Assembly (NCBI GenBank): GCA_947447005.1
Contig: CANFHO010000003.1
Location: 1 to 56,961 of the forward strand
DNA from: Chitinophagaceae bacterium
GTDB taxonomy: Bacteria; Bacteroidota; Bacteroidia; Chitinophagales; Chitinophagaceae
Direction: 5' to 3'
Length of the DNA stretch: 56,961 bases
Positions within the stretch are counted from its first letter, which is position 1; every line of letters begins with the position of its first letter. Made by a program: the position numbers and the translations under genes. The notes under the pieces were generated by a model. That model saw only the letters and a list, made by a program, of their open reading frames with translations. It searched no databases and was not told where the DNA came from. Shown here piece after piece: positions 38,722 to 51,678 of this stretch.

Positions 38722-39402
38722 ATGGCTGAAGAAGGTAAGAAAATATTGATTGCTGATGATGAACCCGATATACTCGAAATCATCAAATTCAACCTTCAAT
38801 TGCACGACCATGAGGTAGAAACTGCCAAGGATGGTGACCAGGCGATTGAAATTGCTAAAAAATTCAAACCAGATCTGATCATACTTGATATCATGATGCC
38901 TAAGAAAAACGGCATTGAAGTATGTAAAATTTTAAGATCCCTCCCGGAATTCCAAGATACAATCATAGTATTTCTCACTGCCTTGAATGATGAACTTTCG
39001 CATGTTAAAGGTTTAGAATTCGGGGCGGATGACTATCTAAATAAACCCATTTCGCCTAAAGTAATGGTTAGCAAGGTCAATTCATTATTCAGAAGATTGA
39101 ACAAACAAGAACAATCCAGGATTTTGGATTTTGGCGATTTGAAAATCGACCCCGACCAATATGTCGTGTATTTTAAAGGCCAGTCTATATCGCTTGCAAA
39201 GAAAGAATTTGATTTGCTTCATTTCCTGGCAACAAAACCCGGTAGGGTTTTTCTCAGAAATGAAATCCTGAATGAAATTTGGGGAAGTGAAGTAATTGTG
39301 GGAGATCGAACCATTGATGTTCATATCAGAAAAATCCGACAAAAACTAGGGATTGAATGTATCAAAACAGTAAAAGGGGTGGGCTATAAATTTGATCTCT
39401 AA
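38722..39402 (+). CDS. phoB: OmpR/PhoB-type response regulator
   Basis: A 226-residue transcription factor. The receiver has DDE at 12-14, phospho-acceptor D56 (LIILDIMMPKKNG) and K108 (DDYLNKPI). The winged-helix DNA-binding domain (about 130-225) ends CIKTVKGVGYKFDL. It lies 42 bp before its histidine kinase. The symbol phoB rests on similarity in style to Bacteroidota PhoB and on the surrounding phosphate genes (ppk1, ppx, PlcP-like); it has not been tested against other OmpR-type regulators. Confidence 0.8.
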   Translation: MAEEGKKILIADDEPDILEIIKFNLQLHDHEVETAKDGDQAIEIAKKFKPDLIILDIMMPKKNGIEVCKILRSLPEFQDTIIVFLTALNDELSHVKGLEFGADDYLNKPISPKVMVSKVNSLFRRLNKQEQSRILDFGDLKIDPDQYVVYFKGQSISLAKKEFDLLHFLATKPGRVFLRNEILNEIWGSEVIVGDRTIDVHIRKIRQKLGIECIKTVKGVGYKFDL

Positions 39403-39444
39403 TTGAGTTTCCCACCTGATTCTATCTAATTCGTACATTGCAAT

Positions 39445-40491
39445 ATGTTCGAAACTAAAAATCTAACTCCACTCCATATCTCATCTATCATTGGGAGCGT
39501 GGCAGCAAGTACTGCAGGAATTTTTGTCATTTTTATGACAGGAAGTTTTTCCTACATGTTACTGACATTGATAATAATTTTTATCCTGTCTTTTTCTGTG
39601 AGTAAATTTTTTATTGAGAAATTCATCAACAGGAAAATCAAGTTGATCTATAAATTCATTCATCAAACCAAAGCTTCTAAACGGGAAGAATTTTTTACAA
39701 AAACCATTTTACCTAGCAAAACTTTAGATGAAGTTGGTGAGGAAGTATTTAAGTGGGCCGATCAGCGTAAGGAAAAAATGGAAATGCTTGAAAGAAATGA
39801 GGAATTCAGAAAAGAATTTCTTCAAAACCTGTCGCATGAATTTAAAACACCTGCTTTTGCCATTCTAGGATACCTGGAAACCCTTATTGCAGGCGCCATA
39901 GACAACCCCGATGTAAATAAAAAATTTCTGAACAATGCCTTTCGTAATACTGAAAGATTAATCAATCTTATTTCAGATCTGGATGAAATCACTAAACTCG
40001 AAAGTGGAAAACTGGAATTGCATTATCAAAATTTTGTTATTCAGGACCTCATCATAGAGGCATATGAGTCTTTATCACTGAAAGCAGAAGAAAAAAATAT
40101 TCATTGCTCCATTAAAAAGGGTTGCGAAGTACCCGTATTGGTCCATGCAGACAAGGAAAAAATAAGACAGGTAATTGCAAACCTGATTGAAAATGCAATT
40201 AAATATGGCAATAAGGATGGTAAAATCGAAGCATCTGTTTACAAAACAGATGATAAAAATTATCTGATTGAAATAACAGACGATGGCATAGGAATAGCAG
40301 AAGAACATTTACCCAGGATTTTTGAACGATTCTACAGAACAGACTATGGAAGAAGTAGAAATATTGGTGGAACCGGACTGGGTTTGGCCATCTGTAAGCA
40401 TATTATTGAAGCCCATGGACAAATAATTCATGCAAGGAGCAAGCCTGGCATTGGTTCTACATTTGGATTTACACTCAGGAAAAATATTTGA
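39445..40491 (+). CDS. phoR: Sensor histidine kinase (PhoR-like)
   Basis: A 348-residue membrane kinase partner of the preceding regulator. Two helices near 13-32 and 37-56 are separated by only a few residues, so almost no periplasmic sensor domain exists. The H-box is LSHEFKTPAFAILGY with His131; N-box NLIENAIKYG (near 251), G1 ITDDGIGI and G2 GGTGLGLAICKHI complete the ATPase domain. The lack of an extracytoplasmic sensor fits PhoR, which in E. coli senses phosphate through the Pst system rather than directly. No pst genes are in the window. Confidence 0.82.
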   Translation: MFETKNLTPLHISSIIGSVAASTAGIFVIFMTGSFSYMLLTLIIIFILSFSVSKFFIEKFINRKIKLIYKFIHQTKASKREEFFTKTILPSKTLDEVGEEVFKWADQRKEKMEMLERNEEFRKEFLQNLSHEFKTPAFAILGYLETLIAGAIDNPDVNKKFLNNAFRNTERLINLISDLDEITKLESGKLELHYQNFVIQDLIIEAYESLSLKAEEKNIHCSIKKGCEVPVLVHADKEKIRQVIANLIENAIKYGNKDGKIEASVYKTDDKNYLIEITDDGIGIAEEHLPRIFERFYRTDYGRSRNIGGTGLGLAICKHIIEAHGQIIHARSKPGIGSTFGFTLRKNI

Positions 40492-40525: not shown

Positions 40526-40542
40526 TTTGCAGTTATATTAAT

Positions 40543-40575
40543 TTAATGTTAACTTAATATGAATTTAATGTTAAC
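40543..40575 (+). promoter_or_regulatory. Three tandem 11-bp TTAAT units (Pho-box-like)
   Basis: TTAATGTTAAC, TTAATATGAAT, TTAATGTTAAC run without a gap. The first and third are identical (flanking AA/T extends the identity to 14 bp) and exactly 22 bp, two helical turns, apart. OmpR/PhoB-type regulators bind such 11-bp direct repeats. It ends 5 bp before the TTG start. Confidence 0.5.
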
Positions 40576-40580
40576 AAAAG

Positions 40581-41783
40581 TTGCAACAAATCATCACATT
40601 CTTCATTTTAGTCTGTCTTTCCATTGGTGCACAAGCATCGAAGGCTGAATACCTCAAAGATTCAATAGAAATTGAATTTCTGGGGAAGAAGTATGCTTTA
40701 TATAATACTACAAAAGAACCCTCCTTCAATAAAAATGTATCAACAGATCATATTCTTTCGTTCTGTGAACAAAAGAATAATCCTCAAATGGAATATATAA
40801 GTCATCAATTGGATATAATCAAAACATCTGAGCACCTAGACGACTGGATGTTTTATCAATTGGTCAGAAAAGCGGCACAGGAAATCACCCCAAAAGAAGA
40901 TGATTATATTGGATATACCATCAACAAATGGTATCTGCTTTCTAAAACTGGATATAATGTATTATTGAGCTGCTCAGAAAACAAAGTGCTGTTATACGTA
41001 GAATCCAGCGACAGTATATTTAATCTTCCGATAAAATATTTAAAAGGAAATCAATATGTATGCATGAATTATCATGATTATGGCTATAGCATTGATTTTG
41101 AAACAGAAAAATTCAATGTTGTAAATAACATTAAAACCGAAGGTCATCTTTTTTCATTCAAGATAAATTCACTGCCAAACTTTGACGAAAATGCCTTTAG
41201 CACAAAGGATATAACGTATCATTTTCGCCAAAAGGATTGTCACTTGAATATTAAGATAAACCGTGAGATGGAAAGCTATTTTAGGAATTACCCAGTGACA
41301 GATTACAAGAACCAGTTTAACATACCCATCAACAAAACAACATACAATTCGCTTATTTCTGCACTCATGGACAAAACCAAAAATATGAGTACAAGAAAAG
41401 GTGTTGAATATTTAATGGCATTTACACGTCATGCTTTCATGTTTGAAAAAGATACAGACTACTTTGGCAGAGAAAAAAGATTATCACCTGAACAAACATT
41501 GCTCTATGAAAGAAGCGACTGTGAAGACAGATCAGCACTGTTTTATTATCTTGTAAAAGAGATATATAAACTTCCGATGATTATCCTTTCATATCCCGAA
41601 CATGTAACAGTTGCTGTAAAACTTGATAAACCCGTAAGGCATCAAGTGTTATTTAATGGTGAGTCTTTTACATTGTGTGAGCCTACTCCACAATCAAGAG
41701 ATCTGAAACTTGGTGAATTAGCACCGGGGCTTAAAAACAAGCCTTATGAAATCGCTTTTGCCTTCCAGCCTGCACAAAAATGA
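40581..41783 (+). CDS. Exported transglutaminase-like protein
   Basis: A 400-residue protein with a signal peptide (QIITFFILVCLSIGAQASKA) after a TTG start. Near the C-terminus, YERSDCEDRSALFYYLV (Cys314), ILSYPEHVTVAV (His341) and FTLCEPTPQS (Glu367) have the spacing and setting of the transglutaminase-like Cys-His-Asp/Glu triad, so a peptidase or amidase role in the periplasm is plausible. The first 280 residues are not recognised. It follows the two-component genes on the same strand and its last 40 bp overlap the glycosyltransferase gene, which runs the other way. Confidence 0.68.
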   Translation: MQQIITFFILVCLSIGAQASKAEYLKDSIEIEFLGKKYALYNTTKEPSFNKNVSTDHILSFCEQKNNPQMEYISHQLDIIKTSEHLDDWMFYQLVRKAAQEITPKEDDYIGYTINKWYLLSKTGYNVLLSCSENKVLLYVESSDSIFNLPIKYLKGNQYVCMNYHDYGYSIDFETEKFNVVNNIKTEGHLFSFKINSLPNFDENAFSTKDITYHFRQKDCHLNIKINREMESYFRNYPVTDYKNQFNIPINKTTYNSLISALMDKTKNMSTRKGVEYLMAFTRHAFMFEKDTDYFGREKRLSPEQTLLYERSDCEDRSALFYYLVKEIYKLPMIILSYPEHVTVAVKLDKPVRHQVLFNGESFTLCEPTPQSRDLKLGELAPGLKNKPYEIAFAFQPAQK

Positions 41784-42844
41784 TCTTCAGCAATCATCAT
41801 TTGTTGATGATTACTCATCTTATCAACTTTCGTTTCTTTATTCATCTCCCTGATACAAGTTGTTTTGGAAAAAACAGACTCTATTATAACTTCTGTTGTA
41901 TACTTTAAATTAAAATCAATCAATTTCGAATCGAAAATCCAATTGTTAAAAAAAGATGGGAAAAAATCATCAATTTCTTCTATTGCCATAATTCCCATTT
42001 CTTTAAGCGATGCCGCATTACATTGCTGTTCGTATTGTCCTTTCATGGGAATAACCATCAATTTTTTTCTCAACAGCATGGCTTCTGCAGGAGTTTCAAA
42101 ACCACCTCCGGTGATGACTCCATGCGATTCAATCATACTTTGTGAAAACACATCCTTATTTACAGGAAATACTTTAATGTTATCTTGAATGTATGGCTGA
42201 GAAATTGTAGAAGAAAACAAATGAAATTGAAACCCCTTTAAAAGTAACAATTGTTTTATCAAAACTTCATCTGAATACTGACCTAAATACACAGTAATAT
42301 GACCTTTATCTGTGGGTTCGGATTCTAAAATTGCTTTTTTGATAATAGGCGAATAAATATCCTTGTCATAATCCTTAAAGTGTAGTCCTATTGTATTCGT
42401 GCCATAGGCATAATTCTTTAAGACCCACTCTCCTATTGCACTTCGCTTTGTTGGTCGTGGCACCTTTTTACTTCTGAAACTGGCTTGATGACCAAAATGT
42501 AAGGATTGAATGCCTTTCAACTTACATGCCAAAGATGTCAATGGCTCAAAGTCATTGATAATAAGATCATATTTTTCTAAAGGAAGATGTTTTGCCTCGC
42601 TAAAAAGTTTTCTTGGAGCAATGGATTTAATAGTTTTAGGCACATCAATGGCCCCATTGGAGTGATCATAAAACAGGCTGATTCCTTTACTTCGATATGC
42701 AACAGGTAAATCTGTTTTCAAACCAAAATTTGAGCCACTTAAAAATATATCTACATTACCATATTCTTGCAAATAAGGTAACAATTCAGAAGCCCTGCTT
42801 ATGTGGCCATTCCCTGTAGCTTGAACTGCGTAAAATATTTTCAT
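41744..42844 (-). CDS. GT-B-fold glycosyltransferase, candidate glycolipid synthase
   Basis: A 366-residue protein with no signal or membrane helix. The N-terminal glycine-rich loop QATGNGHISRASELLPYL (about 8-25) and the C-terminal GVITGGGFETPAEAMLLRKK (about 241-260) place it in the MurG/GT1/GT28-like group, which includes diacylglycerol glucosyltransferases. Its ATG is 2 bp after the PlcP-like stop codon. In known phosphorus-limitation lipid remodelling, PlcP makes diacylglycerol and a glycosyltransferase (Agt, a different family) converts it to glycolipid. This gene could do the second step, which is inference. The last 26 or so residues look poorly conserved and overlap the opposite gene. 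Confidence 0.75.
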   Translation of the reverse strand: MKIFYAVQATGNGHISRASELLPYLQEYGNVDIFLSGSNFGLKTDLPVAYRSKGISLFYDHSNGAIDVPKTIKSIAPRKLFSEAKHLPLEKYDLIINDFEPLTSLACKLKGIQSLHFGHQASFRSKKVPRPTKRSAIGEWVLKNYAYGTNTIGLHFKDYDKDIYSPIIKKAILESEPTDKGHITVYLGQYSDEVLIKQLLLLKGFQFHLFSSTISQPYIQDNIKVFPVNKDVFSQSMIESHGVITGGGFETPAEAMLLRKKLMVIPMKGQYEQQCNAASLKEMGIMAIEEIDDFFPSFFNNWIFDSKLIDFNLKYTTEVIIESVFSKTTCIREMNKETKVDKMSNHQQMMIAEDHFCAGWKAKAIS

Positions 42845-42846
42845 TT

Positions 42847-43707
42847 TTACCGAATCTGTACGGCTAAAGAATTTAAAAACAAAGAAACCTCATCTGTGAT
42901 TACATCAAGTAATGGAATTTTATTGGCTTTTGTGAATGTCTTTGGCTCTTCCACGTAACTGCTTTTTTCACAGAATTGATGTATTTCCCAATTGCCATTT
43001 GAGTATTCCAATGAAGTAAGGTTTTCAATCCAATCACCACTGTTCAAATAAACTACACTACCCTTTTCGGTTTCGATTACTCTGTGTTGAGGTTGGTGAA
43101 TATGACCACAGATTACATGAGAATATCCTTTTTGAATGGCTAATTCGGCAGCTGTTTGTTCGAAATTACCTATCCAGGAAACTGCTTTCTTAACCCCATT
43201 TTTAACCTTCTTACTTAAGCTCATCTTCTCCTTACCCATCAATTTCAACAACCAGTTGATTGCCCTGTTAACTAAAATCAATAAATCATATCCATGTCCG
43301 CCAAGCTTTGCAATCAATTTAGCACTACCCTTGGTTGTTGCATCAAAAACATCGCCATGAAAAATCCATGTTTTATTACCATCTAAATCAATAACGAGTT
43401 TGTCCAACAATTGAAGATTTCCCATTTTCAAACCACTGTAACGCCTGAGGGTTTCATCATGATTACCGGTAATGTAGACAACTTCTGTTCCACGCGACAT
43501 CATGCTGAATATCTCCTTGATAACCTGCATGTGTGAGCCGGGAAAATAATGTTTTCGGAATTGCCAAATGTCTATGATATCTCCATTCAACACCAATAAC
43601 TTAGGAGAAATACTTCTTAGATAGGTAACAAGTTCAGATGCATGACATCCATATGTTCCTAAATGCACATCACTTAAAACAACTACATCCAATGATTTTT
43701 TATTCAT
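42847..43707 (-). CDS. plcP: Calcineurin-like metallophosphoesterase resembling phospholipase PlcP
   Basis: A 286-residue cytoplasmic phosphoesterase usually labelled UDP-2,3-diacylglucosamine diphosphatase-like. Metal motifs are LSDVHLGTYGC (about 12-22), LNGDIIDIW (about 40-48), YITGNHDETLRRY (about 77-89), FHGDVFD and VICGHIHQPQH. SDVHLGT-GC, the GNHDE-LR-Y spacing, WIGNFEQTAAE and LNSGDWIE recall PlcP of Sinorhizobium, which strips head groups from phospholipids under phosphate starvation, more than LpxH. This is judged from memory. It is adjacent to a glycosyltransferase, ppx and ppk1, and preceded by three TTAA 11-bp units. The C-terminal 50 residues are variable. Confidence 0.72.
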   Translation of the reverse strand: MNKKSLDVVVLSDVHLGTYGCHASELVTYLRSISPKLLVLNGDIIDIWQFRKHYFPGSHMQVIKEIFSMMSRGTEVVYITGNHDETLRRYSGLKMGNLQLLDKLVIDLDGNKTWIFHGDVFDATTKGSAKLIAKLGGHGYDLLILVNRAINWLLKLMGKEKMSLSKKVKNGVKKAVSWIGNFEQTAAELAIQKGYSHVICGHIHQPQHRVIETEKGSVVYLNSGDWIENLTSLEYSNGNWEIHQFCEKSSYVEEPKTFTKANKIPLLDVITDEVSLFLNSLAVQIR

Positions 43708-43734
43708 AATAGAGAGGTTCTATAAAATAACAAC

Positions 43735-43767
43735 CTTACTATTAAGAATAGTTTAAAATGACATTAA
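43735..43767 (-). promoter_or_regulatory. Three tandem 11-bp TTAA units upstream of plcP (Pho-box-like)
   Basis: On the minus strand TTAATGTCATT, TTAAACTATTC, TTAATAGTAAG, contiguous, all starting with TTAA. They lie 28-60 bp before the plcP-like start, in the 88-bp gap after ppx, and suggest that plcP and the glycosyltransferase have their own regulated promoter. Confidence 0.5.
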
Positions 43768-43795
43768 GGAATATTGAAATGATATGAACAAAAGG

Positions 43796-44677
43796 TTAAT
43801 GAATCATTTCTGCATAAAGATGTTGAACCAATCCATCTGCCAGACCAATTTTAGGTACAAGCATTTCATCAATAGAAGCCCATTTCATTACTTGTATATA
43901 AATGAGAAGCGCAGGAACAATTACATCTGCTCGATCAGATCTAAGATTATAAAGCCGTATTCTATCTTCCAAGGAACAAGATGAAAATTCTTTATAATAA
44001 TCCTTGAGAAGTTCTAACTGTATGGGCTTGCCATCCTTTCTTTTACTCATGGAAAATATTTTATTGATATTTCCCCCTGTTCCAATGGCAATGGTATTTT
44101 TAACGCCCTTTATATTTTCTTTGATGGTATCTTTCATAAAATCCCAATCAGACTCATGAACAAGATCTTTAAGCAACCGAATTGTACCTATATTAAATGA
44201 ATGCTTGAATACAAGTTCACCTGCAGTAAAAAAGGTAAGTTCGGTACTACCACCACCAACGTCCACATACAAGTAGTTGCTGTTGGTGTCTAGATTTTCA
44301 GCTATATGAGATTCGTAAATAAGTGAAGCTTCAAAATCCCCGGAAATAACTTCAATATTTATACCTGTTTCCAGGTATATCTTACGAACAATATCAATAC
44401 GATTTTTTGCATCACGCATCGCACTTGTTGCAACTGCAATATGCCTATCCACCTGGTATGCTTTCATCAAATGGGCATAAGCTTTCATTGTTTCAAGAAT
44501 CATATTGATCCTTGGCTTTGAAATTTCGCCTGTTTCAAACACATCAAAACCCAATCTCAACGGCACACGAACCAAATTTAATTTGTTGAAAACCGGGGCT
44601 GAACGTTCATTAGAGATCACTTCAGTGATCAATAGTCTTGAGGCATTTGTTCCTATGTCAATTGCTGCTAGTCTCAC
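43796..44677 (-). CDS. ppx: Ppx/GppA-family exopolyphosphatase
   Basis: Removes terminal phosphates from polyphosphate and, in the related GppA, converts pppGpp to ppGpp. The protein has 293 residues, the short single-module form. The actin-like phosphate loops are DIGTNASRLLI (about 6-16) and VDVGGGSTELTFF (about 139-151), with IGTGGNINKIF near 201. The start is GTG at 44677. It lies 9 bp after the ppk1 stop, so synthesis and breakdown of polyphosphate are encoded together. Confidence 0.92.
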   Translation of the reverse strand: MRLAAIDIGTNASRLLITEVISNERSAPVFNKLNLVRVPLRLGFDVFETGEISKPRINMILETMKAYAHLMKAYQVDRHIAVATSAMRDAKNRIDIVRKIYLETGINIEVISGDFEASLIYESHIAENLDTNSNYLYVDVGGGSTELTFFTAGELVFKHSFNIGTIRLLKDLVHESDWDFMKDTIKENIKGVKNTIAIGTGGNINKIFSMSKRKDGKPIQLELLKDYYKEFSSCSLEDRIRLYNLRSDRADVIVPALLIYIQVMKWASIDEMLVPKIGLADGLVQHLYAEMIH

Positions 44678-44686
44678 GTATTCCTA

Positions 44687-46753
44687 TCAAGATTTTTTTT
44701 GAAGGTACTTCAATATCTCTTCCTGAGAACGTATTTTTTTCTTTCCGTGTGAATCAATATATATATTTTTAAAATCTGCATCCAACACCCTTGCTTTTAC
44801 ATTATCAGAAAGTTGAATTTGCAGAATTTCCTTTAATTCCTGTTTTAAAAATTCATCTAAAATAGGACATGCCGCTTCAACACGATGGTCTAAATTTCTA
44901 ACCATGAAATCAGCACTCGAAATATACATCAAATCTTCACCTGAATGATGAAAATGGAGTACGCGGGCATGCTCAAGATATTGATCAACAATGCTAATTG
45001 CATTGAGAGAATCTGGCCTTTTTCTCTCTTTTCGTTTTGCAGAAAATATTCCACGGATGATCAGATCAACTTTGACTCCAGCGATGGAGGCTTTATATAA
45101 TTGATCAGCCAGGGCAATATCGCTTAATGAGTTCAATTTTAATGTAATGCTTGAAGGACGCCCTCTTTTTGCCTGTGAAATCTCAAAATCAATTAACTCT
45201 TTGAGCTTTTTACGCATGCCGAGAGGGCTGACCAAAAGCGTTTTTATATCCAAAAGTGCCTTACCATGCATTACAGGGTTTTCCAAATAAAAGAAAATCC
45301 TATTGATATCAGCCATGATAGACCTATTGCTCGTAAGCAAACAATGGTCACCATAGAAATTGGCTGTTTTTTCATTTAAGTTTCCGGTGCTTACAAATCC
45401 ATACTGAATGGTTTTATTGCGCACCCTTTTTTTAATAACACAAATCTTAGCATGAACTTTCATATTGGGAATTCCCAAAATAACTTTTACCCCTTCATCT
45501 TCCAATACGTTTTTCCATTCCAAATTGGCTTCCTCATCAAATCTTGCTTTGAGCTCCAACATCACTTCAACATTCTTTCCGTTCCTGGATGCATTGATCA
45601 GGGCATTGATGACTTTAGAATCTGATGCCAATCTGTAGGCAGTAATCTTAATTGAACTTACATCCGGATCAATAGCGGCTTCCCTTAAAAGATCGATGAT
45701 AGAACTAAAAGAATGATAAGGGAAATGAAGTAATACATCCTTTGCAGTAATGACATCAGTAACCCTGTGGGCTTTTTTTAATTCCGGATGCGGGATAGAA
45801 GAAGGCCTTTCTTTTACAGCAGGGAATACATTGGGAAAATCCATAAAATGTTTAAAATTATGAATCCTTCCACCGGGTATAATGCTTGATTTATTATCCA
45901 ATTTCAGTTTTTTGGTTAAGAAATTCAATAACCCTCCATTCATTTCTCGATCATACACAAATCTTACAGGCTTTCCCTTCCTTCGTCCTTTTAAACCTTT
46001 TTTCATCTTTTCAACCAAAGAGATGCTCACATCATTGTCAAAGTCAATTTCAGCATCTTTTGTAACCTTAAAAATATGTGCATCAAATTGATCATAACCA
46101 AAATAGGAGAATATATAAGGTAGATTCACTCGAATAATATCCTCCAGCAAAATGATATGTGTCTCTTTGTTTGCTGTAGGCAATTGTATAAATCGACCAA
46201 CAGATTTAGATGGAATTTCAATCAGGGCATATTGTTGATGGTATGCAGATTGTTTACTTTGCATCACAACACCGAGATAAATACTCTTTTCACGCAGATA
46301 TGGCAGTTCAGCCAATCCTTCGATCATTAATGGAATGATGTTGGATCGCACATTTTTCTCAAAAAAATCGACAACAAAATCTTTCTGCACTTTTGAAAGC
46401 TGTTTATCATTTTTCAGATAAACTTTATTGCGTTTCATTTCACTCTGAATATTAATCCAGATTCGGTCAAATTCATTTTGTTGTTTTAATACATTATGTA
46501 AAATTTCGATTAAAATTTCACTGGGAAGGTTTTCCATGTGAAAATTCATTTTGTCTTTCTTCCCGGTTAATTCAACCATTCTTTTCAAGGTTGCAACACG
46601 CACTCTGAAAAACTCGTCAAGATTATTGGAGAAAATCCCTAAAAATCTAATTCGATCTTTTAGAGAAACTGATTGATCATTCGCCTCCTGCAACACCCTT
46701 GCATTAAAGCTTAACCAACTGATATCTCTTTGTACAAATGAACTCTTCAACAT
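44687..46753 (-). CDS. ppk1: Polyphosphate kinase 1
   Basis: Reversibly polymerises the gamma-phosphate of ATP into polyphosphate. The protein has 688 residues, the usual length. The N-terminal domain has RDISWLSFNARVLQEA (about 9-24) and FSNNLDEFFRVRVATLKR (about 41-58). The phospholipase-D-like catalytic part has the active-site His434 in MKVHAKICVI, with FVSTGNLNEKTANFYGDHC after it. First gene of ppk1-ppx. An 11-bp-phased AT-rich site (46776-46797) precedes the start. Confidence 0.97.
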   Translation of the reverse strand: MLKSSFVQRDISWLSFNARVLQEANDQSVSLKDRIRFLGIFSNNLDEFFRVRVATLKRMVELTGKKDKMNFHMENLPSEILIEILHNVLKQQNEFDRIWINIQSEMKRNKVYLKNDKQLSKVQKDFVVDFFEKNVRSNIIPLMIEGLAELPYLREKSIYLGVVMQSKQSAYHQQYALIEIPSKSVGRFIQLPTANKETHIILLEDIIRVNLPYIFSYFGYDQFDAHIFKVTKDAEIDFDNDVSISLVEKMKKGLKGRRKGKPVRFVYDREMNGGLLNFLTKKLKLDNKSSIIPGGRIHNFKHFMDFPNVFPAVKERPSSIPHPELKKAHRVTDVITAKDVLLHFPYHSFSSIIDLLREAAIDPDVSSIKITAYRLASDSKVINALINASRNGKNVEVMLELKARFDEEANLEWKNVLEDEGVKVILGIPNMKVHAKICVIKKRVRNKTIQYGFVSTGNLNEKTANFYGDHCLLTSNRSIMADINRIFFYLENPVMHGKALLDIKTLLVSPLGMRKKLKELIDFEISQAKRGRPSSITLKLNSLSDIALADQLYKASIAGVKVDLIIRGIFSAKRKERKRPDSLNAISIVDQYLEHARVLHFHHSGEDLMYISSADFMVRNLDHRVEAACPILDEFLKQELKEILQIQLSDNVKARVLDADFKNIYIDSHGKKKIRSQEEILKYLQKKS

Positions 46754-46926: not shown

Positions 46927-48567
46927 TTATAGACCCCATTTAGTCCAACCCACTGTCCAGTCTGATGTACCAATGGCACCTACAAATGTAACCTTATCAA
47001 AAAATGCATTGGTTAATTTGGTAGGAGTGAAGGTAGAGCCACTCAACAATGGAGAGCCTGCTTGTGGATTGAGGTTAGGAGCAGCAACAGTAAAAGGACT
47101 TGTCAATTTCAACGTTGTTACATCAGAAACCTCAACAGTACCAGTTGCAGCATATTGAGATTTAATAGCTACTAAATCGTATGATGGGAAACCAGCGATG
47201 GTATAAGGAGATGCAGATGCAGAATACTTATCAGCTACTGCAAAAACCTTAGCTTGATCGCCAATATAGCAATTTTGAAGAAGGCTAGAACCTCTTAAGT
47301 AATATGCAATAGTTGAATCTTCCTGAACCCTGAATGCTTCTTTAGCTGAACCCAAAACAACTGAGTTAGCCAATAAAAACTGAGCGCCTCTTCTCCAACG
47401 CATACCCCAACCATAATCAGCTGAAGTACCATTAACACCTGCTGCACTGTTAGGACCAATTGCTGTGAAGTTTGAAAGTACTGGCGAAGTAATCGGGGCA
47501 CGTGTCAAAGTGAATCCGTTAGAAGGATTTACATTATCTACTTCAAAATTATTAGATACGTCACCAGTCGTTCCTTTAGGATCGGTGAAAGCAGGATCAC
47601 GGAAAGAAATAGCATATTGGATCATTCCACGGTATCCATCATCAAAATCGAAATCATCATCAGCGCAATTGTATATAACCACGTGCTTCAGATTAGCTGC
47701 GCCACCAAATATTTCCAATCCATCATCATATCCTCTGGAAATCTGAATGTAATCGAATGTTGTACCAGAACCTACACCATACAATGACAAACCATTTACC
47801 TCATCACCAGGATTTACTGCTTTACCAGCATATTCAATACGAACATAACGAAGGGTACCTGAGTTATCAGCATCATTGTTGCCACCAAACGCCTGGTAGC
47901 GAACATCCAAACCACCTTCCATTACAGCGTGGTTACCATTCACTTTAGCATTACCTGCAATAACTACACCACCCAAGTCACCAGGAACCGGAGATGTTTC
48001 AGCAGATGTAAAAACAATAGGCGCAGAAGCAGTTCCATCTGCAATGATTTTTGCATCAGGAGTTACAATCAAAACGCCAGCAGAATCTTTGTTAGATACA
48101 ATCTTAGTACCAGCTTCGATTGTCAATGTAGCACCATTTAATACATATACATAACCACGGAGTCTATACACATAATCCTTTTTCCAGGTTGTATTTGCTG
48201 TAATAGTTCCACGTACATCTAAACGTGAACCAACACCTACAAATGTAAATCCTGCAAATGAAACAGATCCACCAGGTGTTGTTACAGTAACGCTACCTGA
48301 AGCACTACCCGCAGCAACTGTAGCAGTAATTGAAGTTGCGCTAACTACTGTAAATGCTGCTGCATTTACACCACCAAAAGAAACAGATGTTGCATTGGTG
48401 AAATTTGTACCAGTTATTGTAATAACATCACCTGCAATTGCAGAACCAGGAGAAATTGCAGTAATGGTAGGAGTAGCTACTGTAGGTACTACAGGCTGTT
48501 CTGTTTTTTTACATGCAAATGCCATCATTAGAAGGCCAGCAGCGAGAAAAATTTTCAATTGTTTCAT
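46927..48567 (-). CDS. Surface lipoprotein with IPT/TIG domain and right-handed beta-helix region
   Basis: A 546-residue lipoprotein: the lipobox LLMMAFAC places the lipid-bearing Cys near residue 19, followed by KK. An IPT/TIG Ig-like domain (about 33-110, TAISPGSAIAGDVITITGTN) is followed by a threonine- and glycine-rich part with repeated strands (RLRGYVYVLNGATLTIEAGT, LKHVVIYNCADDDFDFDDGY) that look like a beta-helix. Similar proteins are paired with TonB receptors in Bacteroidota, and some are mislabelled multidrug transporters. It starts 19 bp after the receptor stop and probably serves as its surface partner. Ligand unknown. Acidic clusters suggest metal (calcium) binding. Confidence 0.82.
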   Translation of the reverse strand: MKQLKIFLAAGLLMMAFACKKTEQPVVPTVATPTITAISPGSAIAGDVITITGTNFTNATSVSFGGVNAAAFTVVSATSITATVAAGSASGSVTVTTPGGSVSFAGFTFVGVGSRLDVRGTITANTTWKKDYVYRLRGYVYVLNGATLTIEAGTKIVSNKDSAGVLIVTPDAKIIADGTASAPIVFTSAETSPVPGDLGGVVIAGNAKVNGNHAVMEGGLDVRYQAFGGNNDADNSGTLRYVRIEYAGKAVNPGDEVNGLSLYGVGSGTTFDYIQISRGYDDGLEIFGGAANLKHVVIYNCADDDFDFDDGYRGMIQYAISFRDPAFTDPKGTTGDVSNNFEVDNVNPSNGFTLTRAPITSPVLSNFTAIGPNSAAGVNGTSADYGWGMRWRRGAQFLLANSVVLGSAKEAFRVQEDSTIAYYLRGSSLLQNCYIGDQAKVFAVADKYSASASPYTIAGFPSYDLVAIKSQYAATGTVEVSDVTTLKLTSPFTVAAPNLNPQAGSPLLSGSTFTPTKLTNAFFDKVTFVGAIGTSDWTVGWTKWGL

Positions 48568-48585: not shown

Positions 48586-51429
48586 TTAGAAGTTTAATTT
48601 GAGGCCAAGATTCACACTTGTACCGTATTTTGCTGAATTGATTACTTTATCTTTAGATGCATCAAAATTGTTATTTGATGGGTTCTGATCGAACTTATAA
48701 AACCATCTGAAAGGCTGAGCCAGGATATCAGATATAGCAAATTTCACTTCTGCCTTACCCTTCATGATTTTCTTACTCACCTGAACATCCACAAGGTCGC
48801 GTGGCATTTCAAAAATATTGAATGCTCCACCTTGAACTGCCCTAAACTTCAATCTAGGACCAACCCTGTTGTACAACATGCTGATCGAAAGATCTTTGTC
48901 TGTGGCATAGCTTAAACTTGTATTGATAATGTATGGAGATTGACCCTGCAATGGGGTGTTAACCTGACTGCTGCCAAAGGTTACATTACCCAACATGTAT
49001 GCAAGGTTTGTGTAGAAAGAAAGATTTTCAAAGAATTTTCCCCCAATGAAATCAAGTTTTTTCCTGAGTTCAACTTCTGTTCCATATGTTTTTGCCTTGT
49101 CGGCATTTTTGTATGAAAGCACATCATTTCCAAGATTCACTTGTTCAATCGGGTTGCTGAATGATTTGAAAAAAACACTCGCTGAAAAAATCTCACCTGC
49201 TGATGGGAAAGTTTCGTAGCGCAAATCGATATTGTTAATCAGAGCACGTTTTAAATTTGGATTACCACGAACCACTACGAAATTGTCGTAATCAAATACA
49301 CTATAACTCGCCAATTCCCTAAACTCAGGTCTGTTAACAGAAATTGAACCAGCCAATCTGAGATTTGTTTTATCTCCAATAGCATATGTCAACAATGCTG
49401 AAGGTAAAACATCAAAATTCTGAAGTTTCACATCCGCTTGATTGAGTGCGTGTAATTCCTGTGAATAATTTTCAACCCTGGCTCCTGTTGTCAATTTGAG
49501 CTTGTCAGAAAATTTACCATCATACATCAAATAACCTGCATTGAGCATTGCATTTGCAGTGTATGAGGTTGAGTTATTGCCAATTGTAGCCAATGTCAAT
49601 TTGAATGCATCGATGTTTGAAGGAGAAAAGATGGTAGAATAATCAGTGGACTTAGTTTCATAAATAGTTACACCTCTGAAATCAAGAGATGCATAACCAA
49701 GTGCATCAACAATTGTTTTTCTGTCGCGATAATAATTCAAAGAACCAAACTTCAACTTCTGCGCAGCACCATTCACTTTGAACTGGTAAGTGAAATTAAA
49801 ACCTGCATTGTAGATCTTTTCATCCAGGTTTGAGAAAATCCTTCCTGCATTTCTGATTTCTGGTGAATTTTCATTACCTATTTTTAAATAATAATTGTTT
49901 GTCTGATCATTGGGAGTTCTGAAGGCAACAATTTTTTGATCCGGCTGATTTTTGTACGCATCAGAAACAGATGTTGTCCAATCAACAGTCAATTTTGAAC
50001 TCAATGAATGTGTTCCATCCAATACCATACTTGCCAATCCTACAGAACTTAATTCATTGTTATAGCTTTTTAGCTCAAAACGGGTAGGACGGTTGCTGAT
50101 ATCATATCCATTTCTCAGACCCAGTGAATTTGAAAAATCATTATTGAACAAGCCTTTCAATGTATACTTGCTTTTGCCTTTTGAATATGCAAGATTGATC
50201 AAGCCAGATAGACTGTTCTTTTGATCATACACATTCGTGTTGTTTTCATATAAAAGGTCTCCATTCAACATATAATCTGATCTTCCCTTGTCTGATACCT
50301 TTCTACCATTGCTATAACTAACCATGTAGAGGAAACCAAACTTTGCATTGTTTTTCAGCAACAAAGTATTACCACCACTCACACCTACACTGAAACTTGG
50401 AGCTGAAACAGCCTTTCCTTCATAACCATAGCTACTTGGAAACTGTTTAGATATTTGTTGCTTGGTGTAATTTGGCAAAGAAATAAAACCCGAGCCGCGA
50501 TTTGCAAGATATTGGGCAGGAACATTTCTCAACTTATCGAACATGCCAAAATTATCATACTTACCATTGAAAGTGGAACCGTAAAAACCTTTGCCAGTAG
50601 TCAGGGAATTGCCTGAACCTGAAATAGATACTTCAGTAAATGCTTTTGCAGGGTAATCTTTGGTAACAACTTTAACCAATCCTCCAGAAAAATCTCCTGG
50701 CAAATCGGGTGTAAGCGTTTTATATATAATCAAGTTATCAATAGCTGATGCAGGTATGATATCAAAGGAAAACGCTTTTTTATCTGGCTCTGTACTGGGA
50801 AGAATGTTATTATTCAACATGGCAACATTGTATCGCTCATTCAAACCCCTGATAACCACGAATTTATTGTCTTGCACAGATGCACCTGATACCCTGCGGA
50901 TCACCTCACCTGTGTTTTTGTCTGGTGATTTTCTGATAGATTCTGCAGAGATACCGTCTTGAATGCTTGAACTGTTTCGTTGCATGAGATACAATGAAGC
51001 AACAGATTCTTTCCGCCCTGATGCCTTAACAACAACTTCTGCCATTTCCTTCATTTTGGGTTGAAGTGAAATAACCAATCCATTGTCGTTTAGTGGATCA
51101 ATATCGCTGATGATTTTCTTTTCATAGCTTGCAGAACTGATTTCCAACTCATACTTCAAACCTTGCTTCATCTCAATGATGAATTTTCCTTCAACATCTG
51201 AGGCAATGCTTTTCTGTGTTTGAGTAAGCTTTACAGTTGCACCTACAATTGCAGATCTGGTTCTACCATCAATTACTGTTCCATTAAATTTGATTGATTT
51301 TTGTGCTGTTGCAATGAGAGAAAACAGCAAAGCAAAGAACAGGAGAGTAGTAGTTTTAGATCTGCCATGAAGCATATTGAACACAAGTTCAATGTTGCTT
51401 TTTGTTGATTTTTTAAATCCCTGGGTCAT
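48586..51429 (-). CDS. TonB-dependent outer-membrane receptor with carboxypeptidase-like N-terminal domain
   Basis: Imports a bulky ligand through the outer membrane with TonB energy. The protein has 947 residues. The leader (about 25-42) is followed by a CarboxypepD_reg domain (FNGTVIDGRTRSAIVGATVKL), a plug with KSPDKNTGEVIRRVSGAS and FVVIRGLNERYNVAMLNN, and a beta-barrel ending in the aromatic VNLGLKLNF. It has no SusD partner; the downstream IPT lipoprotein takes that place. The promoter shows a TAGATTTG element with 11-bp units just upstream, as if activated by the PhoB-like regulator. Uptake of a phosphorus compound is a guess from that context. Confidence 0.92.
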   Translation of the reverse strand: MTQGFKKSTKSNIELVFNMLHGRSKTTTLLFFALLFSLIATAQKSIKFNGTVIDGRTRSAIVGATVKLTQTQKSIASDVEGKFIIEMKQGLKYELEISSASYEKKIISDIDPLNDNGLVISLQPKMKEMAEVVVKASGRKESVASLYLMQRNSSSIQDGISAESIRKSPDKNTGEVIRRVSGASVQDNKFVVIRGLNERYNVAMLNNNILPSTEPDKKAFSFDIIPASAIDNLIIYKTLTPDLPGDFSGGLVKVVTKDYPAKAFTEVSISGSGNSLTTGKGFYGSTFNGKYDNFGMFDKLRNVPAQYLANRGSGFISLPNYTKQQISKQFPSSYGYEGKAVSAPSFSVGVSGGNTLLLKNNAKFGFLYMVSYSNGRKVSDKGRSDYMLNGDLLYENNTNVYDQKNSLSGLINLAYSKGKSKYTLKGLFNNDFSNSLGLRNGYDISNRPTRFELKSYNNELSSVGLASMVLDGTHSLSSKLTVDWTTSVSDAYKNQPDQKIVAFRTPNDQTNNYYLKIGNENSPEIRNAGRIFSNLDEKIYNAGFNFTYQFKVNGAAQKLKFGSLNYYRDRKTIVDALGYASLDFRGVTIYETKSTDYSTIFSPSNIDAFKLTLATIGNNSTSYTANAMLNAGYLMYDGKFSDKLKLTTGARVENYSQELHALNQADVKLQNFDVLPSALLTYAIGDKTNLRLAGSISVNRPEFRELASYSVFDYDNFVVVRGNPNLKRALINNIDLRYETFPSAGEIFSASVFFKSFSNPIEQVNLGNDVLSYKNADKAKTYGTEVELRKKLDFIGGKFFENLSFYTNLAYMLGNVTFGSSQVNTPLQGQSPYIINTSLSYATDKDLSISMLYNRVGPRLKFRAVQGGAFNIFEMPRDLVDVQVSKKIMKGKAEVKFAISDILAQPFRWFYKFDQNPSNNNFDASKDKVINSAKYGTSVNLGLKLNF

Positions 51430-51446: not shown

Positions 51447-51491
51447 CAAATCTAGCCTTGCATTGTTAACGAATTATTAAGTCAGTGTCAA
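51447..51491 (-). promoter_or_regulatory. Promoter of the TonB receptor operon with 11-bp phased units
   Basis: On the minus strand TTGACACTGAC, TTAATAATTCG, TTAACAATGCA (51459-51491) run without gaps. Four bases later TAGATTTG (51447-51454) matches the Bacteroidota -7 element, 17 bp before the ATG. There is no TTG at -33; the phased units occupy that position, as expected where an activator replaces the -33 contact. Confidence 0.5.
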
Positions 51492-51678
51492 CAGAAAATA
51501 ACATCTAAAAAATGTTAATAAATAAGAGGCCTGTTTACAATTTATTAATATTGACTTTACATACAACTCATATTGGGCATATTAATTTCTTGGGCTATAA
51601 AATCGACTTCACATTGGATTTTATTGTACGAATCCATATGGAAAATGTCTATAAATCGTCTACTTAAAAAGTTTGACA

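Follow-up and report, generated by a model that had tools for sequence, protein, structure and literature searches.

The window analysed here is a 56,961-nucleotide stretch of DNA from a Chitinophagaceae bacterium (contig CANFHO010000003.1 of assembly GCA_947447005.1; the genome comprises 169 contigs totalling 2.9 Mb). Its subject is a pair of minus-strand genes, which encode a PlcP-type metallophosphoesterase, a putative intracellular phospholipase C (42847–43707, 286 aa), and a PF13528/MJ1255-like GT-B glycosyltransferase, proposed to act on diacylglycerol (41744–42844, 366 aa). According to the open reading frames (ORFs) and family matches, the pair closes a minus-strand series of TonB receptor, TIG-domain protein, ppk1, ppx, phosphoesterase, and transferase, and the last two genes are only 2 bp apart. 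The ppk1 gene (44687–46753) encodes a 688-aa polyphosphate kinase with full PPK1 domains (TIGR03705, 666 bits, above the cut-off). The product of ppx (43796–44677) is a 293-aa exopolyphosphatase of the PF02541 Ppx/GppA family, with a TIGR03706 score of 204 bits, below the cut-off of 307. The plus strand carries genes for a response regulator and a histidine kinase (38722–40491), followed by a 400-aa gene, all pointing toward the transferase. A sequence-only reading of this stretch had described the locus as a candidate lipid remodelling cluster; re-examination of the ORFs reproduced its coordinates, gene order, and 2-bp gap, and the motifs it had quoted (SDVHLGT-GC, GNHDE-LR-Y, and NSGDWIE) were all found in the translated phosphoesterase.

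The phosphoesterase matches PF00149 and PF12850, and could be assigned either to PlcP, as had been proposed, or to a second, LpxH-like lipid A enzyme, in which case the pair would serve lipopolysaccharide synthesis. LpxH models are the best NCBIfam matches of the protein, and databases annotate its relatives as UDP-2,3-diacylglucosamine diphosphatase. With the structure model, which is of middling confidence (pLDDT 75), the first 25 Foldseek rows were LpxH chains; these matches show a common predicted fold and are not decisive on function. The maximum-likelihood tree of 80 chosen rows gave a clear separation: all 69 PlcP-type rows split from the 11 LpxH-type rows with a support of 100/100, and the window protein was on the PlcP side (E. 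coli LpxH formed a very long branch, flagged by the tool). The genome also has a distinct LpxH gene (L005), whose product shares 41% identity with a protein annotated as LpxH in Parabacteroides. The refuting condition set by the sequence-only reading, placement within LpxH and absence of any further LpxH from the genome, did not hold. LpxH identity was ruled out on these two grounds. The phosphoesterase scored far under the LpxH model cut-offs, likewise the PlcPs of S. meliloti and P. aeruginosa, but the genome's own LpxH fell below as well (98.8 of 134), and the cut-offs were therefore abandoned as a criterion. We consider a role of the pair in lipid A synthesis highly improbable.

The PlcP side of the tree includes the S. 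meliloti protein L191 and the P. aeruginosa protein L238, the first gene of a plcP-agt pair. We infer that L191 is the orthologue of the verified S. meliloti PlcP and that the L238 pair corresponds to PA3219-PA3218; the 46.6% identity between the two proteins agrees with the 46% reported for PA3219 and S. meliloti PlcP (PMC8528852). Deletion of PA3219 leads to the loss of MGDG in P. aeruginosa, according to the same source. The loci L191, L192, and L238 are labelled as plasmid and look chromosomal (e.g., the 3.7-Mb S. meliloti 'pSymB'). The window protein belongs to Bacteroidota group A of the tree, and shares 40% identity with the P. aeruginosa enzyme and 34% with that of S. meliloti. A separate branch (99/100) unites the five proteobacterial PlcP rows with 19 of the 21 rows of group B, a second Bacteroidota set; L207 and L208, assigned to group B by similarity score, were placed among group A.

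The PlcP signature comprises GDW[IV]E together with CGH[IT]H. GDW[IV]E, which was chosen after the data had been inspected, is present in 42 of 43 group A, 18 of 21 group B, and all five proteobacterial rows, and in none of the 11 LpxH rows; the window protein has it within NSGDWIE. The last Glu was retained because the shorter GDW[IV] also occurs in 4 of the 11 LpxH rows and does not discriminate. GNHDE was rejected as a PlcP marker, since it is not universal (6 of 21 group B rows).

The transferase was found to be distinct from Agt, as the sequence-only reading had held; its assignment to the MurG/GT28 group gave way to the PF13528/MJ1255 family. The protein matches PF13528 (Glyco_trans_1_3) with 81 bits (cut-off 25), and TIGR00661 (MJ1255/VC2487), the sole NCBIfam model matched, with 128.3 bits, under the curated cut-off of 195.9. 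No PF04101 or MurG model of Pfam or NCBIfam matched at an E value of 0.001, and the protein was therefore not placed in MurG or plain GT28 on sequence grounds. Compared with the P. aeruginosa Agt1-type protein of L238, the similarity was limited to 25% over 28 residues (E = 0.8). The models matched by that protein are of the GT4 type (MGlcDAGSynMgs among them), with every score under its cut-off; its best match in the host genome is a different, partial one on contig C58. The lack of meaningful similarity and the different models exclude the window transferase from Agt.

The AlphaFold model of the transferase is confident (pLDDT 91), and the predicted fold is GT-B. The Foldseek matches are GT-B enzymes, for the most part UDP-glycosyltransferases, with two MurG chains among the 50 listed; TM scores were mostly 0.4–0.6 with rmsd values of 6–16 Å, the domains being differently set. 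The GT1 and MurG enzymes are inverting; MshA, a retaining enzyme, was also among the matches (TM = 0.31). In an alignment of 54 relatives, QATGNGH and GFExPxE...YEQxCN were invariant, and we take these motifs to resemble the MurG pattern. The GT28-type diacylglycerol glycosyltransferases UgtP and plant MGD1 have the GT-B fold with a MurG-like glycine-rich N-terminus.

Following a question raised by the sequence-only reading, we surveyed 296 Bacteroidota genomes for further copies of the pair; all counts from this survey refer to the matches listed. With strong PlcP defined as E at most 3e-89, there were 89 rows in 87 genomes. A transferase match within 400 bp downstream of plcP on the same strand was counted as a pair. 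Such pairs were found in 65 of the 87 strong-PlcP genomes, plcP being the first gene in all 65. By table labels, the paired genomes span 12 families, one of which (f23) accounts for 31 of them. This distribution indicates that the arrangement is beyond chance. The named transferase relatives are from Bacteroidota, chiefly Chitinophagaceae, and many are metagenome-assembled. The survey yielded 73 window-type transferase rows, three of them in genomes without a strong PlcP row; in G123, a genome of this kind, a PlcP fragment lies ~225 bp from the transferase.

plcP is also accompanied by other transferases. For 12 of the 22 unpaired strong-PlcP genomes the loci were fetched, and three of these had a third transferase type directly behind plcP, which matched both PF04101 and PF13528 in the two members scanned. 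In group B, a Parabacteroides-type transferase (PF13528 in the one scanned) adjoins plcP in 16 of the 20 loci fetched. The exceptions among these 20 were L216, with a window-type transferase on the opposite strand, and L199, L207, and L208, in which no transferase was found. In a transferase tree of 47 sequences, where deep joins are uncertain and long branches were flagged, three types (Parabacteroides, third, and uvrD-linked) were each confined to one side of a branch, with supports of 99–100; the remainder comprised the window type and its unpaired copies.

The uvrD-linked transferases, 30–34% identical to the window protein, occur in family f17 in another setting, with no strong PlcP match. 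Of the 10 loci fetched, 8 show them within a conserved series of genes, and ORF calling missed the transferase in the other two. In one such locus (L271, 2398–8702), the series consists of uvrD, the MJ1255-like transferase, a nitroreductase, and arsA. Because these proteins lie in a different setting, PF13528-type similarity alone implies no phosphorus role. They lend weight to a rival explanation, which accepts PlcP and its Pho control but lets the transferase act on an aminolipid, lipid A, or a surface glycan, while the diacylglycerol is recycled into other lipids. PF13528 membership is uninformative on the acceptor, and the non-phosphorus lipids reported for the plcP-bearing flavobacterium Dokdonia MED134 are aminolipids, not glycolipids (PMC4796936). 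On the other hand, adjacency to plcP in three transferase types mirrors the plcP-agt arrangement, whose partner glycosylates diacylglycerol. We regard another acceptor as rather unlikely, and diacylglycerol as the probable one.

To describe the surroundings of the pair, 80 loci were fetched by transferase similarity, a sample biased to kin, and neighbors within seven genes were recorded; PhoU, Pst, SusC, and SusD were identified on cluster representatives. Every one of the 80 loci contained plcP, and in 79 the transferase gene followed immediately, the exception being L104, where the contig ends within the transferase; the gap was at most 30 bp in 72 of the 79, with a median of 5 bp. The neighbors included ppk1/ppx (20 loci), SusC with SusD (20), a response regulator with a kinase (18), pst-phoU (16, and one partial), and a TonB receptor with a TIG protein (15). 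Their orientation varies among the loci; L079 carries the gene set of the window with ppx-ppk1 reversed. The phosphorus link postulated from ppk1-ppx was thus broadened by PhoBR, pst, and the Pho-box-like motif described below, but ppk1/ppx itself is near the pair in only a quarter of the relatives. A search for PhoU in the host genome gave no match, whereas pst-phoU flanks the pair in 16 relatives as above; phosphate uptake in this genome may run another way. A betaproteobacterial plasmid (L194, 3884–8667) has plcP, ppk1, and a ppx-type gene adjoining, an independent plcP-polyphosphate association.

The regulator and kinase genes of the window are predicted to encode a PhoB-type response regulator (38722–39402, plus strand) and a PhoR-type histidine kinase (39445–40491, plus strand). 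The best NCBIfam model of the regulator is TIGR02154 PhoB, and its scores fall below the PhoB cut-offs (225.1 of 296.2 and 206.2 of 270); likewise, the kinase scores are below those for PhoR (216 of 334.2 and 188.8 of 500). L239, a locus with a regulator and a kinase in the PhoB and PhoR positions, offered a further comparison. Its regulator found the window regulator as its best match in the host genome (51% identity, next best 39%), and its kinase found the window kinase (42%, E = 8e-73, next 5e-21). These best matches, together with synteny, suggest that the two proteins are orthologues of PhoB and PhoR.

The synteny is with a phosphate-starvation locus of F. johnsoniae. Table 1 of PMC8115612 gives the order Fjoh_0546-0541 as hypothetical lipoprotein, TonB receptor, PhoB, PhoR, OprP, and glycosyl transferase, with the domains pf07715, pf13715, and pf14905 in the receptor, pf07396 in OprP, and pf04101 in the transferase. 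Its FC column for phosphate depletion lists 9.91 for the lipoprotein, 8.02 for the receptor, 3.06 for PhoB, 0.76 and −1.3 for PhoR and OprP (both not significant), and 5.42 for the transferase Fjoh_0541. The PlcP gene Fjoh_4577, which lies elsewhere in the genome, is listed with 8.59, and it is filed with Fjoh_0541 under 'Lipid remodelling', both being induced by phosphate depletion. Among our 12 third-type transferase loci, a regulator-kinase pair was at most one gene away in 10, a TonB receptor was present in eight, and a TIG-type protein in six. In L242, a PF07396 porin sits between the kinase and the third-type transferase, and the gene order is that of Fjoh_0546-0541. From this order, we infer that the third-type loci correspond to the Flavobacterium locus.

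The window shares further members of this locus. Its TIG-domain surface protein (46927–48567, minus strand; PF01833) is the positional counterpart of the lipoprotein Fjoh_0546, and is 37–42% identical to the same-position proteins in six third-type loci. The TonB-dependent receptor (48586–51429, minus strand) has the domains given for Fjoh_0545 (PF07715, PF13715, and PF14905), and its identity to the same-position receptors in the third-type loci is only 24–31%. Judged by gene order, the window appears to be tied to the F. johnsoniae PhoBR locus.

Regulation was approached through the regions upstream of plcP in other genomes (68 regions, dereplicated to 47), with the window left out. In the 68 regions, exact 5-mers recurred 112 times at an offset of 11 (shuffle mean 32, maximum 51; 20 shuffles) and 94 times at an offset of 22 (mean 35, maximum 51), while coding controls showed no such excess (15 and 14, respectively). 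A third value, 60 at offset 15 (shuffle maximum 53), was also peaked in the coding control (57), which points to relatedness among the sequences; after dereplication it no longer exceeded the maximum (34 against 38). In the 47 regions, the counts were 87 at offset 11 (mean 23.5, maximum 40) and 59 at offset 22 (mean 21.2, maximum 37; 100 shuffles), and within the range of 6 to 35 these two offsets were the only ones to exceed their shuffle maxima. Repeats of 11 or 22 bp were present in 38 of the 47 regions, compared with a shuffle mean of 22.5 and a maximum of 31 (100 shuffles); five other offset pairs gave 17–26.

A matrix trained on the 68 regions was used to scan both strands of the window with a threshold of 12 bits. 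Six sites reached the threshold, as compared with 0.9 per shuffle. Only the strongest, with 22.1 bits (51535–51563, plus strand), lies above the shuffle maximum of 15.9; it has no mismatch to the own-genome pattern and separates the TonB receptor gene from the divergently oriented gene at 51673, either of which could be its target. A second Pho-box-like site (51462–51490, minus strand, 15.8 bits) is found ~30 bp upstream of the receptor start. An array of 11/22-bp repeats (40533–40578) upstream of the 400-aa gene contains three overlapping matches of 12.0–14.1 bits. The site ~73 bp upstream of plcP is weak (43781–43809, minus strand, 12.5 bits) and overlaps the 3' end of ppx.

The matrix was then applied to held-out genes, for which the loci are related and the counts are not independent. 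The threshold of 12 bits was reached in all 15 regions preceding the TonB receptor (14 loci), in all 11 preceding a 434-aa gene at the head of the pst series, in 7 of 10 for SusC, and in 4 of 5 for a PhoU_div gene, as compared with 13 of 272 for other genes. The values were low for the regulator (only 2 of 14), ppk1 (1 of 10), the PF01663 gene (1 of 14), and the 400-aa gene (2 of 5). The control is weakened by the stretches scored as convergent, 14 of 106 of which also reached 12 bits, possibly because ORF calling mislabels some. In the third-type genomes, the threshold was reached upstream of the TonB receptor in 6 of 8 cases, the transferase in 2 of 11, and other genes in 10 of 67. A pattern search of the host genome showed no overall excess (12 matches against 11 for the reversed control); the six sites with at most one mismatch are suggestive, three being in the window, one before a SusC/SusD pair, and two without an evident phosphate link. 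This SusC/SusD pair, on contig C15 (L264, 1651–4896), is 45–48% identical to those flanking plcP in relatives; with its Pho-box-like site ~73 bp upstream, it is a candidate phosphate-induced uptake system.

These results bear on the possibility that the locus is a loose gathering of phosphate genes, with PlcP and the transferase acting in constitutive membrane housekeeping. The 26 of 80 loci without any counted phosphorus neighbor and the weak box upstream of the window plcP are compatible with it. The excess of repeats upstream of plcP over shuffled sequences argues against it, as does the induction of the F. johnsoniae genes by phosphate depletion (PMC8115612) and of plcP in phosphate-starved marine isolates (PMC4796936). 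We consider constitutive housekeeping quite unlikely. PhoB-type control of the predicted regulon appears well supported for Chitinophagaceae-like genomes, and less so for plcP in the window itself.

The hypothetical 400-aa gene (40581–41783, plus strand) occupies the slot of the PF07396 porin in L242, and the 40 bp at its 3' end are shared with the transferase gene. Its protein had no match in Pfam or NCBIfam, and relatives were found in 9 of the 80 loci. These recur next to the TonB/TIG genes or ppk1. The motifs DCEDRS, YPEH, and CEPT suggest a transglutaminase-like fold.

With the above results in hand, we propose that the PlcP-transferase pair is probably the core of a Bacteroidota phosphate-starvation lipid remodelling pathway. 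At low phosphate, the regulon would be activated by PhoR-PhoB, whose genes lie close by. Membrane phospholipids would lose their phosphate-bearing head group to the PlcP-type enzyme, and the resulting diacylglycerol would receive a sugar from the GT-B transferase, which is probably co-transcribed with plcP; the product would be a phosphorus-free membrane glycolipid. The released phosphate could be buffered as polyphosphate by the ppk1 and ppx products, while the TonB receptor and TIG protein may scavenge extracellular phosphate compounds. A broader form of the proposal, on which we find the arguments evenly balanced, is that PlcP works in Bacteroidota with at least three separate MJ1255/MurG-like GT-B types instead of Agt, under a Pho box of TTAACANTNNN units repeated at 11 bp, in a regulon that includes TonB/SusCD and pst genes.

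Several observations weigh against the proposed pathway. The proteobacterial PlcPs form a sister branch and do not surround the window protein. About a third of the loci lack counted phosphorus neighbors, and the f17 transferases have a different setting. In Dokdonia, phosphate starvation induces plcP and lowers phospholipid by approximately a third, but the non-phosphorus lipids described for it are aminolipids, as discussed above (PMC4796936). No 11/22-bp repeat was found at the weak site upstream of the window plcP, and outside the training genomes sites of at least 12 bits precede plcP in only 2 of 11 third-type and 1 of 13 group B cases. In Labilibaculum, also of the Bacteroidota, lipid classes were stable, although its authors state that phosphate was not really limiting (PMC12927429). 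Neither lipid nor enzyme data on members of the transferase family turned up in our literature searches; among the matches listed, titles and abstract starts revealed no enzymatic test of such a Bacteroidetes transferase and no Bacteroidota Pho box.

Taken together, the locus probably represents a genuine Bacteroidota version of PlcP lipid remodelling, which earlier publications foreshadow in part. The remodelling pair proposed by the sequence-only reading stood as to the PlcP type, the non-Agt transferase, the recurrence, and the phosphorus link, and was revised as to the transferase family. Table 1 of PMC8115612 lowers its novelty, as do types 3 and 5 of PMC4796936, the latter being plcP genes upstream of non-agt glycosyltransferases in some marine bacteria. 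The new elements are the phylum-wide pairing of plcP with three transferase types, and the candidate 11-bp-repeat Pho box upstream of plcP in other genomes. Bacteroidota are common in phosphate-poor habitats. Their phosphate-sparing membrane lipids and the enzymes involved are hardly characterised in the literature covered by our searches. The conserved pair provides two concrete genes for genetic study, and the repeat motif a testable PhoB site and a route to listing the regulon across the phylum.

The closest known system is PlcP-Agt of Alphaproteobacteria and Pseudomonas (PMC4796936, PMC8528852), with which the window shares the order of plcP and a glycosyltransferase gene, the Pho setting, and the PlcP clade. 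It differs in the partner, which is PF13528/MJ1255-like, whereas Agt matches GT4-type models, and in the position of its PlcP in the sister branch. Types 3 and 5 of PMC4796936, set beside the window by their description, are similar in having plcP directly upstream of a non-agt glycosyltransferase; one non-agt partner in that work makes di- and triglycosyldiacylglycerols. The F. johnsoniae locus likewise brings together PhoB, PhoR, a TonB receptor, a surface lipoprotein, and a transferase, with PlcP and the transferase assigned to lipid remodelling. There, however, plcP is an orphan and the transferase is pf04101, while in the window plcP is paired with a PF13528 transferase beside ppk1-ppx; the orthology of the Fjoh proteins to those of the window rests on synteny. 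LpxH has the metallophosphoesterase fold in common with the window protein, but belongs to a separate clade and is encoded by its own gene in the genome. Putative Pho boxes have been noted at plcP clusters (PMC4796936), and the proteobacterial Pho box is CTGTCATNNNNCTGTCAT (PMC8528852). Both this element and the present motif are direct repeats with an 11-bp period, although our matrix corresponds roughly to TTAACANTNNN units, two to three in a row, unlike the proteobacterial sequence.

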